DNA of 64,000 nt from Gemmatimonadota bacterium (GTDB lineage Bacteria; Gemmatimonadota; Gemmatimonadetes; Longimicrobiales; Gaopeijiaceae). Positions 7,556 through 38,653 of this stretch are shown here, piece after piece. Position 1 is the stretch's first letter, and every line of letters starts with the position of its first letter. Both the position numbers and the translations under genes were made by a program. Below the pieces are notes generated by a model that had not been told where the DNA came from, ran no database searches, and worked only from the letters and a program-made list of their open reading frames with translations. The stretch is taken from NCBI GenBank assembly GCA_022560615.1, contig JADFSR010000003.1:62001-126000 (forward strand), read 5' to 3'.

Positions 7556-7571
7556 CGGCCAGTCGTCGAGA

Positions 7572-7646
7572 CGACGAGGAGAGACGATGGATCAACCGCG
7601 CAACCGCCATGTGAGCGGCCCACCCCCCTTTCCGATCACCCTTCTA
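7572..7646. repeat. Shortened copy B of the structured terminal-inverted-repeat family
   Basis: Bases 7572-7613 match the reverse complement of 12192-12233 in copy A at about 39 of 42 positions. They are followed directly by gcggcccacc and a terminal sequence ending gatcacccttcta, which equals the end of copy A (12010 onward, inverted). The roughly 145 bases lying between these parts in copy A are missing, so this is a deletion derivative. The last bases, cttcta, include the TAG stop codon (7644-7646) of the minus-strand E1 gene, so the element end has become the end of that coding region. Confidence 0.75.
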
Positions 7647-9779
7647 GTACGCCGCCAGCTCCACCATCGCCTCGAGCACGTCGGGCGCTTGCGGCAGGAT
7701 GACGTTCTCGAGCTGTGGCGCGTAGGCGACCCAGGTGTCCATCGACGCCACGCGCTTCACCGGCCCGTCCAGCCAGGGGAAGAGATCGTCGGCGATGCGC
7801 GCCGCGATCTCCGCTCCGATGCCCCAGGACAGACTGTCCTCGTGCACGATCAAGACCCTGTTGGTCTTCTTCACCGAATCCGCGATGCGCTCCATGTCGA
7901 GCGGCTTCACAGTGCGCAGATCGATCACTTCTGCCTCGATGCCGTTCTGCTCCGACGCCATCTTCGCCGCGTCGAGGCTCCGTTTCACTAGCGCGCCACA
8001 CGTGACCACCGTGATGTCCGAGCCTTCACGTCGGACCTTCGCTTTCCCGAACGGGATCATGTACTCGGGCCCCGGATTGCGGCCCTTGTTGTAGACCTGG
8101 CGGTAGAGGTGCTTGTGCTCGAGGAAGAGCACAGGGTCCTCACAACGGATCGCGGTGCGCAGGAGACCGTTCGCGTCTTCTGCGGTCGCCGGCATGCAGA
8201 CATACAGTCCGGGGCAGTGCGTGAAGAGCGTTTCACCCGTCTGCGAATGGTAGATCCCTCCACCCTTCAGGTAGCCGCCGTACGGAGTGCGGATCACCAT
8301 CGGAGAGGAAAACGCGCCGTTCGACCGGTAGCGCATGGTCGCGAGCTCGTTCCGGATCTGCATCATCGCCGTCCAGATGTAGTCGAAGAACTGGATCTCG
8401 ACGACGGGCTTCATGCCGCGGAGGGCTAGCCCGATGCCGCGTCCTACGATGTTCGCCTCCGCGAGCGGAGCGTTGTACACACGCTCCGATCCGAACCGCT
8501 GCTGAAGGCCATGAGTGACCTTGAAGACGCCGCCCTTGCCTTTGACCTGGCTCAACGCCTCCTCACGCGAAGCGTCCGCTACATCTTCTCCGAAGAGGAC
8601 GATGCGTGGATCACGTTCCATCTCCTCGCTCAGGCACGAGTTCAGGAGGTCGACCATCGTGAGCAACTTGTCGCCTGCGTACTGCGGGTCGTCCTCGGTA
8701 TCGAAGTCAGAGGAAGTCGGGTCCACATCCTCCGAGTATAGATGGCGCATCGCCGTGCTGGGGTCTGGCTGCGGCGAGGCGAGTGCTTCGTCCGCTGCGG
8801 CGGCGACTTCGGCCTCGGTCTCGGCTTCGAGCGCATCGAGCTCTTCGCTCGTCGCGATCCCCGCGCCGATGAGCAATGCTCGCGTCAGGGTCAGCGGGTC
8901 GCGAGCCTCTTGCTCAGCGAGCTCCTCCGTCGTCCGGTAGGCGCGCTCGTCGTCGGACATCGAGTGCGAATAGGGCCTCGTGCAGTGCGCGTGAATGAAG
9001 GCCGGGCCTTTCCGAGCACGGGCGTACGCGACGGCTTCACCCGCCGCCCGATAGGAGTCCACGATGTCCGTACCGTCACACTCGACGATGTGTAGACCCG
9101 GAAAGCCCGCGACTAGCTTCGAGATACTGCCGCCCGCTGTCTGCACCTCGACGGGTACCGAGATCGCGTAGCCGTTGTCCTCGATCACGTAGACGATCGG
9201 CAGCTTGAGGTTGCACGCCGAGTTCAGCGACTCCCAGAACTCACCTTCGGACGTCGTACCGTCGCCCGCGCACACGACGACGATCTCGTCGTCCTCGAAT
9301 CTCTCGATTCGCTCGCGCAGCCCCGGGATGCGCGGGATCTTGGTCGTCGCTTCGGCGGCGCCCACGGCCTGTAGGAACTGCGTTCCGGTCGGCGACGAGG
9401 TGTTCGCGATGTTGTAGCGCACGTCGGCGTAGTGCCCGGGCATCTGCCGACCCCCTGAGGCCGGGTCCGCTTCCGCACCCACGGCCTGAAGCAGATGGTC
9501 CAGGGGTGTCTGTCCCAGCGCCAACGTCACGGCGCGGTCTCGATAGTAAAGGAAGAACCAGTCGTGTCCGGCCTTGCAGTGCTCGGCAACCGCGACGCCG
9601 ATCGCTTCGTGACCCGCGCTGGAGATCTGGAAAAAGATCTTGTTCTGCCGCTTGAGACTGATCTCGCGATCGTCGAGGCGCCGCGACGTCACCATCGTGC
9701 GGTAGAAGCGCAGGAGCTGCTCGGAGGAGAGTCCCGCCAGATCGTGAGCTTCCAGAACCTCGTTCTCTTGGGTCGCCAT
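7644..9779 (-). CDS. Fused 2-oxoacid dehydrogenase E1 component (alpha and beta subunits in one chain)
   Basis: The protein has 711 residues from ATG 9779; an in-frame TTG at 9806 would add nine. The N-terminal half is a thiamine-diphosphate-binding E1 alpha subunit, with '[11 protein letters not shown]' and the TPP motif starting '[10 protein letters not shown]' and ending 'VIEDN'. After a linker near residues 350-370 the C-terminal half is an E1 beta subunit ('[12 protein letters not shown]', '[18 protein letters not shown]', '[18 protein letters not shown]', 'FLEHKHLYR'). The reaction is oxidative decarboxylation of a 2-oxoacid, most likely branched-chain or pyruvate, with transfer to the lipoyl group of E2. 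Fused E1 chains are known in Bacteroidota and related phyla. No E2 or E3 gene lies nearby. The stop codon falls inside repeat copy B. Confidence 0.93.
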
Positions 9780-11930: not shown

Positions 11931-12476
11931 GCGCCCGATGGGTTCAGAGGAGGAGCCAGGTTAGCGGCGCGAACCGTGCCTGGACAGGAAACATATGTAG
12001 CCGGCGCGCTAGAAGGGTGATCCGAACGGGTGGTGGGCCGCCACCCGTGCTGTCGCACGGGTCCCCGGGTGCCACGGCCCCAGAGGGGCGAAGGCGTAGC
12101 CATAGCTCCTCCGAGACACTCCAACGACGGAGATGGGGCCGTGCCACCCCAACCCACAGAGGGGTAAGATCCTATCAGCCATGGTGTTGGGCACATGGCG
12201 GTTGCGCGGTTGATGCTGCGTCTCTCCTCGTCGGACCACCGCCTTCGGCGGCGGTGCCCGCTCGGCTACGACTCCCCGTCGTTCCTTGCCTGAACGCGCG
12301 CAAGCGCGAGGCACCCACGCGGTTAGGCGTGGGTCGCGCGGCCCGCCCCCCGTTCGGATCACCCTTCTATGATCGTTGTGGTGCCGTATCGGGCTACCTA
12401 ACTTTGGAGTATCGACCTGCCTCCCAGGGGCCGATCTCCGCTGCGAAGGACAAGGATCTTGTCGCTGTACTCGAAG
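11931..12476. other. Intergenic region dominated by repeat copy A
   Basis: The gap between the DUF255 gene and the small gene at 12477 is filled mainly by the 360-bp structured repeat at 12010-12369. Outside it I see only about 80 bases on the left (upstream region of the minus-strand DUF255 gene) and 107 bases on the right, which must contain the promoter of the plus-strand operon. No clear -35/-10 pair was found there. Confidence 0.6.
12010..12369. repeat. Structured repeat with terminal inverted repeats, copy A
   Basis: The 360-bp element is bounded by perfect 21-bp inverted repeats, 12010-12030 (tagaagggtgatccg...) and 12349-12369, followed inward by an imperfect gggccgc on both sides. 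Inside are several hairpins: acccgtgc/gcacgggt (12043-12062), a long stem of 12067-12081 with 12135-12149 (14 of 15 paired), caccgcc/ggcggtg near 12237-12255 and cccacgc/gcgtggg near 12313-12332. Four internal blocks recur in inverted order in copy C at 37127-37462, one of them identical over 30 bases (12231-12260). No open frame of note and no target-site duplication are seen. It is best described as a non-autonomous mobile element or structured-RNA cassette of unknown type. Confidence 0.85.
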
Positions 12477-24389: not shown

Positions 24390-24829
24390 GGTATAGGCCG
24401 CTACCAGCAGCGCCAGGGCGATCGCGACCGAGCAACGACGGCGAAGGTGCTTGATGTCGAAAGAGGAGGAAGGCATGGAGCCTGGAAGGGTAGGGGGTGC
24501 GTTGCCGCGTTCGGTCCGCTCGGATTGCTGTTCGGCGCCCGAAAAGATCCGTGTGCCTCCACGTACCGACAAGCGCTATGCAGGATCCCCGCCTCACAGA
24601 ACAACGGAACCCCCGGTCCAGCCGCATCGACGAATCGGACGCTCTGGGCATCGTGGACTCTCCTGCCCGATCACATAGTCAGAAGCGCTCCCAGAGAGCG
24701 GTTGCGACGACTATGTCCCGCCCGATGCGGTTCTGTTTCTGTGCGCGTCGTGAACCACTCAGGTCGCCATAGCTCCGCGTAGCACCTATCCTGTTGAGTG
24801 TCAGTTGCTCCGTTGGAAGGCATCGTCCA
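24390..24829. other. Gene-poor scar region upstream of the YiiX-like gene
   Basis: These 440 bases hold no intact gene. They include a 114-bp copy of the murQ 5' end (24545-24658) and, on the minus strand, a hydrophobic frame fused to the gamma-glutamyltransferase-like tail. The final part must hold the promoter for the gene at 24830; a purine-rich ggaagg nine bases before its ATG is the ribosome binding site. A deletion between a lost gene and an inserted fragment is the simplest explanation. Confidence 0.55.
24545..24658 (+). pseudogene. murQ: Duplicated 5' fragment of murQ
   Basis: This segment is identical to 37718-37831 at 110 of 114 positions. The shared part begins seven bases before the GTG at 37724, includes the real murQ start codon (ATG at 24578 here) and 27 codons ('DPRLTEQRNPRSSRIDE'), then stops abruptly at 'GIVD'; the flanks are unrelated. 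It cannot make an etherase. The high identity indicates a recent copy event between two sites 13 kb apart. Confidence 0.9.
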
Positions 24830-37126: not shown

Positions 37127-37462
37127 AGCAGCCCGTGGTAGAAGTACAGTGGGCCGCCACCCGCAAGCGGGTACCCGGGGGTCTCGCGAGACCTGGAGTA
37201 GGCACGACGACGAGTCGTAGTTGTTCGGGCACCGCCGCCGAAGGCGGTGGTCCGAGGAGGAGAAACGACCTCCAGGGCCGCGACCCCCCTGCGCCCAACA
37301 CCATGTGTGAAATACATACCGGTTCGTGGGTTACGGTGGCACGGTCCCATCTCCGTCGTTGGCGCTCCTAGCCGTAGCGACGGCTATGGCGTCGTCGCAC
37401 CGCCTAGGAGCTGGAGCCGTGGCACCGTAACGCGGCCCGCTGTACTTCTACCACGGGCTGCT
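37127..37462. repeat. Structured repeat with terminal inverted repeats, copy C
   Basis: The 336-bp element is bounded by 31-bp inverted repeats that match at 30 of 31 positions (37127-37157 and 37432-37462; outer part agcagcccgtggtagaag). Internal blocks shared with copy A, in inverted order, are 37225-37254 (identical over 30 bases to 12231-12260), 37293-37305 (identical over 13), 37335-37362 (27 of 28) and 37416-37426 (identical over 11). A long stem joins 37330-37344 to 37417-37431 (14 of 15 paired). The corresponding stem exists in copy A with different outer base pairs. No open frame and no target-site duplication are seen. It is of unknown type, probably non-autonomous. Confidence 0.87.
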
Positions 37463-37524
37463 AGCGTCGTGTGGGTCGCACCGAAATGCGACGGGGAACG
37501 CGGCGACGCCGAAGTGTGGGGATG

Positions 37525-37592
37525 GCTCTCGGGTGGCGGCGTCGCCTAGGAGCGCACGTCTCGCGCGCCACTCGGGTCAACCACCCGAGAGC
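37525..37592. repeat. 12-bp inverted repeat with 44-base loop
   Basis: The arms gctctcgggtgg (37525-37536) and ccacccgagagc (37581-37592) are perfectly complementary. Between them is a shorter gc-rich palindrome (gcgcacgtctcgcgcgc). It lies between repeat copy C and murQ and may be a transcript end, a leader structure or a further mobile fragment. Confidence 0.6.
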
Positions 37593-37750
37593 TGATACAA
37601 GCCGCGCGCACGGAGATGAGAATCGACATGGTTGGGCCTATATAGGACGGGGAGAAAGGCTCGTCAACCTCAATGCTGTATCATCTGTAAGCTCGCCGTG
37701 CGCCAGGCAGCTGCACTAGATCCGTGAGCCTCCACGTACCGACAAGCGCT

Positions 37751-38653
37751 ATGCGGGATCCCCGCCTCACAGAACAACGGAACCCCCGGTCCAGCCGCAT
37801 CGACGAATTGGACGCTCTCGGCATCGTGGACCTGATCAACGCGGAAGACGGCATGGTCGCCGCCGCGGTGGGTGAGGAACGTGAGGTGATCGCCCGTGCG
37901 ATAGAGCTCGCCGAGGCCGCGTTCCGGGCCGGGGGTCGTCTCATTTACGTGGGCGCAGGCACCTCGGGAAGGCTCGGGGTCCTGGATGCCGCGGAGATGC
38001 CACCGACGTTTGGCACCGATCCCGAGATGGTACGAGGCATCATCGCGGGTGGGTACGAGGCGCTCGTCCGCGCGCGGGAGGGTGCCGAGGACCGAAGCGA
38101 GGACGGCGAGGCCGCGATCGACGAGATCGAGGTCAGCGCGGACGATTTCGTGCTCGGCATCGCCACCTCGGGCACGACGCCCTATGTGCACGCAGCACTC
38201 GCCCGCGCGCATGAGCGTGGGGCCAAGACCGGCTTCTTGCTGTGCACGCGTCCGTCCAAGGAGTTGCTCGAGGGGCACGACGTCGTGATCGCGCCTCTGG
38301 TGGGCCCCGAGGTGATCACCGGGTCCACGCGCATGAAGGCCGGTACAGCGACGAAGCTGGTGCTCAACACCATCACGACCGGAGCGATGGTCCGGCTGGG
38401 GAAAGTGTACGGCAACCTGATGGTCGATCTCCAGGTTACGTGCGAGAAGCTGCAGGACCGGGGTGAGCGAATTCTGTCCGAGACGCTCGATCTCGAGCGG
38501 CCCGACGCGGCGAGCCTGCTCGAACGCGCACGCGGTCACGTGAAGATCGCGCTGGTGATGGGACGCCTGGATGTCGATCGGGACGAAGCGACTCGACGAC
38601 TCGAGGACGCCGCCGGCGCCCTCAACACGGTGCTGGGAGATCTGGACCGTTGA
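37751..38653 (+). CDS. murQ: N-acetylmuramic acid 6-phosphate etherase
   Basis: The 300-residue protein starts at ATG 37751 (M-R-D-P-R-L-T-E-Q-R-N-P-R-S); the GTG at 37724 would add nine residues not typical of the family. Its SIS-domain motifs are 'RLIYVGAGTSGRLGVLDAAE', 'GIATSGTTPYVHAAL' and 'TGSTRMKAGTATKLVLNTI' (shortened). It cleaves the lactyl ether of MurNAc 6-phosphate, producing GlcNAc 6-phosphate and D-lactate during peptidoglycan recycling. The catalytic Glu is expected in the 'DAAEMPPTFG' segment. Its stop overlaps the start of the next gene. A partial copy of its 5' end occurs at 24545. Confidence 0.95.
   Translation: MRDPRLTEQRNPRSSRIDELDALGIVDLINAEDGMVAAAVGEEREVIARAIELAEAAFRAGGRLIYVGAGTSGRLGVLDAAEMPPTFGTDPEMVRGIIAGGYEALVRAREGAEDRSEDGEAAIDEIEVSADDFVLGIATSGTTPYVHAALARAHERGAKTGFLLCTRPSKELLEGHDVVIAPLVGPEVITGSTRMKAGTATKLVLNTITTGAMVRLGKVYGNLMVDLQVTCEKLQDRGERILSETLDLERPDAASLLERARGHVKIALVMGRLDVDRDEATRRLEDAAGALNTVLGDLDR

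Follow-up and report, generated by a model that had tools for sequence, protein, structure and literature searches.

A folding stem within a small mobile repeat of Gemmatimonadota: selection on the fold and its possible action as DNA

Two copies of a repeat, here called A and C, each contain a stem in a 64,000-nucleotide stretch of a Gemmatimonadota genome (the window, with a GC content of 65%), and the initial annotation took changes on both sides of that stem as a sign of selection on the fold. This locus raises the question of whether the fold is selected and, if so, as RNA or as DNA. The stems at 37330-37344/37417-37431 in copy C and 12067-12081/12135-12149 in copy A exist, each pairs at 14 of 15 positions, and the single mismatch is identical in both, a G.G at 37339.37422 in copy C and at 12072.12144 in the minus-strand reading of copy A. 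The argument drawn from these two copies is thinner than it appeared, because, once the two copies are placed in homologous register, a two-sided change remains at a single pair (C-G to G-C). The remaining outer pairs are out of register: those outside GGTGGCACGG/CCGTGGCACC in copy A are not homologous to those of copy C, because an extra hairpin at 12043-12062 follows the copy A right arm and displaces them. The noted difference between the inner cccc/gggg pairs does exist, but it consists of a one-sided T.G to C-G change plus a repaired C.A mismatch. The accompanying prediction, that further copies would show covariation, is right. What that reading missed is the mobility of the element and a mismatch spectrum that argues against conventional RNA.

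The features of the three copies in the window are as follows; TIR denotes a terminal inverted repeat.

37127..37462, + strand: copy C, a complete MITE-like element of 336 bp with C-class TIRs; its 31-bp inverted ends are 97% complementary and the whole element matches dozens of genome copies
37127..37157, + strand: left TIR of copy C, which forms the 5' side of the terminal stem and has ~22 outer bp specific to its class and a shared inner GGGCCGC
37173..37294, + strand: left arm of copy C, with stems 37173-37181/37286-37294 and 37184-37198/37270-37283, mapped onto copy C from the 74-element consensus
37330..37431, + strand: right arm of copy C, containing the initially annotated stem, 37330-37349/37412-37431, with the conserved G.G mismatch
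37352-37354/37407-37409, 37358-37366/37396-37403 and 37373-37378/37383-37388, + strand: inner stems of the right arm of copy C
37432..37462, + strand: right TIR of copy C, the 3' side of the terminal stem, followed by AG to give CTAG at 37461-37464
12010..12369, - strand: copy A, a complete element of 360 bp with A-class TIRs; the homologous sense is the minus strand
12067..12149, - strand: right arm of copy A, containing the initially annotated stem
12043..12062, - strand: extra hairpin of copy A, ACCCGTGC/GCACGGGT, a module absent from copy C at the same place
7570..7648, no strand assigned: copy B, a truncated A-class remnant with one TIR and a piece of the left arm

A mobile repeat with class-specific ends

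The folding stem is part of a small non-coding mobile repeat of Gemmatimonadota that is MITE-like. The source genome (4.5 Mb, 105 contigs) contains the 200-430 bp element in more than 50 full copies, along with many fragments. The element resembles MITEs in being multicopy, shorter than ~600 bp and without a transposase gene; it codes for no protein. Because contigs break inside elements (at the ends of C28, C30, C37, C54 and C62 of the source genome, G000, and also in the relative G066), near-identical copies are probably undercounted in assemblies. Searches of Rfam, at the gathering score over the window and permissively on eight loci, left the element unmatched and returned only an SRP RNA next to one locus and one chance match, and searches of the literature on IS1182 MITEs and Gemmatimonadota repeats yielded no description of it.

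Every complete copy carries near-perfect TIRs of about 31 bp, which fall into at least eight classes. The outer 22 bp differ among classes (e.g. AGCAGCCCGTGGTAGAAGTACAG, AGAAGGGTGATCGGAAAGGGGGG, AGAAGGCTGTTGAAGAAGTACAG and AGGGAGCCTCTGCACAAGTAGGG), while the inner TIR end and the interior are common to them, and additional classes such as CTAGGAGCCTGTCCGAGTAATGGGG and CTAGCAGGTCGCTGAAAAAGG occur among relatives. Interiors that are 91-94% identical lie beneath different TIR classes, with divergence beginning inside the TIR; TIR classes thus change over interiors that stay alike, and the two clearly recombine or exchange. Inverted ends were detected in 81 of about 95 fetched copies, mostly 25-30 nt past the arm, and most of the remainder lie at contig ends or are degraded. 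Tiny hairpins of 30-50 bp, barely more than two TIRs back to back and some with CTAG ends, are also present (G000 C13:61933 and C2:55622; G045 C60:21934-21984), and may be either minimal mobile forms or remnants.

Empty sites reveal that insertion occurs at (C/T)TA(G/A) with duplication of the TA and loss of nothing. A search of relatives with the joined flanks of source-genome copies gave 10 sites with an alignment that spans the junction: nine in G088, a genome of the same genus, and one in G118. The clearest, C23:13246 (empty in G118) and C2:55233 (empty in G088), are plain NTAN sequences that match 1:1 after removal of a single TA, with no hairpin replaced; the others are too diverged at the junction for an exact reading. 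TA is present on both flanks of 37 of the 54 source-genome copies, and the targets deduced for copies of this genome are CTAG (21), CTAA (5), TTAG (4), GTAG (3) and others.

Two further repeats were observed in the window. Shortly downstream of copy C, within positions 37525-37592, is a perfect 12-bp inverted repeat (GCTCTCGGGTGG/CCACCCGAGAGC), and a 114-bp direct duplication, 96% identical, occupies 24545-24658 and 37718-37831. The duplication covers the start of the gene 37724-38653, putatively MurQ-like from its sequence, and the other copy is an orphan fragment lying within a different region.

Matches to a core 25-mer of the element were confined to Gemmatimonadota metagenome-assembled genomes (14 contigs), and a search of viral contigs with the core motif gave no match. 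When genomes were surveyed with a right-arm covariance model, 46 of 121 in the family and 45 of 395 sampled phylum-wide, other orders and families included, proved to carry the element, in up to about 30 copies; whole genera lack it.

Covariation in the two-armed fold

In the consensus fold, a terminal stem formed by the TIRs bears two arms, and the initially annotated stem is the base of the right one. The left arm corresponds to an inverted, diverged version of the right one: in several relatives the right-arm model matches the adjoining left arm on the opposite strand. Some copies have, and others lack, short hairpin modules at fixed points of the element. Relative to shuffled sequences, the fold of copy C is better by 8.4 standard deviations as RNA and by 8.8 as DNA. 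The G.G mismatch inside the right-arm stem is conserved in 89 of 94 copies; the arms are therefore not simply copied from each other.

Covariation was scored by a G-test with APC against a null resembling that of R-scape, though not R-scape itself, in which substitutions assigned by Fitch parsimony on a FastTree tree were redistributed over other alignment columns, each staying on its branch. Among 25 short-form copies, the two top-scoring pairs of the domain are exactly the outer pairs to which the initial annotation had drawn attention, 10-107 (A-U in 11, G-C in 14; expected false positives 0 in 200 nulls) and 11-106 (C-G in 15, G-C in 8; E 0.025). In a model-based alignment of 94 distinct right arms from over 40 species, 10 pairs were significant and all 10 belong to the proposed fold, while a structure-blind MAFFT alignment of 74 whole elements gave 22 significant pairs, 21 of them in the RNAalifold consensus fold. 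The same pipeline applied to RNase P RNA of the same family yielded 3 significant pairs, all in the RNase P fold. Because covarying pairs of the fold exceed the tree null in all three sets of copies, selection on the fold, as originally proposed, is supported.

The apparent covariation might instead have arisen from recombination between paralogous copies or from a wrong tree. Interiors and TIRs do exchange, covariation in the TIR stem partly reflects exchange of whole classes, and with source-genome copies alone, which offer too few independent changes, significance in the whole-element alignment lies mainly in that stem. This explanation is nevertheless very improbable, given that the significant pairs are nearly all fold partners and that joint changes make up 231 of 628 changes at true pairs but only 37-85 of 823-1018 changes at pairs slid by 1-3 positions.

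The mismatch spectrum and the level of selection

Pairing in RNA survives the mutation of a G-C pair to G.U but not to A.C. When events were counted along the tree, departures from Watson-Crick (WC) pairing in the arms led to G.U in 78 cases and to A.C in 72 (21 and 18 on internal branches), whereas RNase P RNA of the same family gave 93:18 in the same pipeline (Fisher p about 6e-8). A ratio of 1:1 is likewise expected of neutral or misaligned positions, and copies within one genome recombine; restriction to well-paired, nearly ungapped right-arm pairs, where the ratio is 33:36 against 72:5.5 in RNase P RNA, argues against a neutral or misaligned origin. Since lost pairs turn into G.U and A.C about equally often, the constraint seems to treat both strands alike, as would be expected of a hairpin or cruciform in DNA and not of normal RNA. 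Among features expected of structured RNAs, the element thus displays covariation above the null, but neither a tolerance of G.U over A.C nor an Rfam match.

The two arms differ when considered separately. Across the alignment of 74 elements, the ratio of G.U to A.C is 47.5:28 for the left arm but 30:43 for the right, which amounts to a weak G.U excess when each arm is read from its end of the element inwards. At some pairs, G.U is fixed when the sense strand is read, which counts against a fold acting as DNA. A sense-strand RNA, first suggested by these pairs, was overturned by event counting with the RNase P control.

Selection on the fold as RNA would involve co-transcription at gene 3' ends or between the genes of operons, with the hairpins modulating mRNA stability, processing or termination, for which ERIC and NEMIS/Correia provide precedents. 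The positions of the elements agree with this possibility: copies are intergenic and close to gene ends (47 of 54 without an overlap of more than 40 bp with a predicted gene), and the TAG of the target is often the stop codon of a neighboring open frame, which is left intact. The sense strand also has a better alifold energy than the antisense (-263 vs. -248). In tandem gene contexts the right-arm sense matches that of the genes in a ratio of 21:11 in the source genome and 30:10 in relatives, a possible bias that hints at an RNA-level effect and speaks against the DNA reading; it drops to 37:23 (p 0.09) under a second gene criterion, and an orientation effect relative to neighboring genes is unproven. 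Together with the lack of a G.U preference of the kind that RNase P RNA of these genomes displays, this makes selection as RNA rather unlikely.

Complementarity of the arms might also be maintained without any selection, by template switching (quasipalindrome correction) at replication, in which both sides change together. The 203 direct WC-to-WC steps, set against the 78 steps to G.U and 72 to A.C, and the symmetry of the mismatch types speak for such a process. It would, however, erase the mid-stem G.G mismatch and the adjoining internal loops, both of which persist, and two-sided steps are not in excess over one-sided steps on short branches, so that template switching is a decidedly weak candidate.

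We favor, with a probability of roughly one half, the reading in which this Gemmatimonadota element is a MITE, a non-autonomous DNA transposon, with a conserved two-armed interior whose fold matters as DNA, as what we infer to be a hairpin or cruciform on either strand. The DNA fold would be recognized during mobilization by a trans-acting transposase machinery or by a host protein that senses DNA structure, while the outer ~22 bp would decide which transposase can move a copy. Elements that lose the fold would stop spreading, leaving copies across species that keep it, and exchange of ends would let several transposases carry one folded body. More tentatively, what is conserved phylum-wide as the identity of the element may be a DNA fold behind exchangeable ends that are each specific to a transposase, selection acting on the folded DNA as such. 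Against the preferred explanation, the shorter TIR-only elements suggest that the interior is not needed for movement.

Candidate transposases and known systems

Transposase action on the elements is something we infer, and it counts against the favored reading that for most TIR classes no autonomous partner was found in the carrier genomes searched. Two transposases found beside copies were rejected as partners. An ISL3-family element (L081:596-1870, minus strand) has its own ends and sits inside a T-class copy. An IS110-family transposase gene (L080:358-1416, plus strand; Pfam PF01548 and PF02371) lies beside a C-class element fragment, and TIRs of this kind would not be expected in IS110 elements; the repeats may instead serve IS110 as target sites.

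A candidate for the C class is an IS1182-like transposase on contig C88, which matches NCBIfam NF033551 (E 3e-48, below the equivalog cut-off) as well as Pfam DUF772 and DDE_Tnp_1 over cut-off. The gene is bounded by CTAGGAGCCCGTGG ends resembling C-class TIRs, although only the C-class TIR tip, CTAGNAGCCCGTGG, is shared with this resident element. No close relative of the protein was found in 19 other carrier genomes, and a search of ten genomes with TIR patterns revealed no recognizable TIR pair at insertion-sequence spacing among the matches listed. The IS1182-family elements IS1272 and TnSha1 are reported to act on or recognize DNA hairpins, to cause no target duplication and to delete the target hairpins (PMC5678879, PMC4923244). 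By analogy, their hairpin recognition would fit a DNA fold, though the target mode differs: replacement of a hairpin in the manner of IS1272 is ruled out by the empty sites, which are plain NTAN with the TA duplicated, and this difference weighs against the favored interpretation.

Folding repeats are common in bacteria, while selection on their fold, and whether it operates on DNA or RNA, has rarely been demonstrated. The divergent copies of this family suffice to address both by sequence alone: the fold is under selection, and the mismatch spectrum resembles the expectation for a DNA structure, in contrast to the spectrum of RNase P RNA in these genomes. The comparison of G.U with A.C is applicable to other repeats, such as ERIC, Correia, CIR and bcr, and the exchange of TIR classes on a constant body offers a natural test of transposase switching by non-autonomous elements.

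The element works most like the ERIC, NEMIS/Correia, RUP, CIR and bcr repeats. It shares with ERIC/IRU, NEMIS/Correia and RUP its short length, intergenic multicopy occurrence near gene ends, TIRs, terminal TA and stable stem-loops (PMC2229807, PMC10969869), but differs from ERIC, NEMIS and RUP in that its terminal stem bears two internal arms with statistically supported covariation in many species, that one body occurs with at least eight TIR classes and that G.U is not preferred, and it is unrelated to them in sequence as far as tested (no Rfam match). CIR elements of Caulobacter and Brucella likewise consist of two linker-joined arms conserved between genera, but they are without terminal inverted repeats and carry a GANTC motif, and the text portions of PMC2229807 consulted report no covariation statistics of the present kind (PMC2229807). 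The repeats bcr1-bcr3 of the Bacillus cereus group are also MITE-like, multicopy and often located in UTRs or operon gaps, yet they belong to another phylum, and their MITE character and conserved structure were described for different bcr families (PMC3446304). To the IS1182 family (IS1272, TnSha1) the element is linked by the C-class tip shared with the C88 element and by the hairpin or palindrome targeting known for that family, while it differs from the hairpin-deleting, non-duplicating IS1272 and TnSha1 in duplicating TA and encoding no protein. We describe the element as a MITE in which a conserved two-armed fold is combined with ends that can be exchanged and with a covariation signature like that of DNA.
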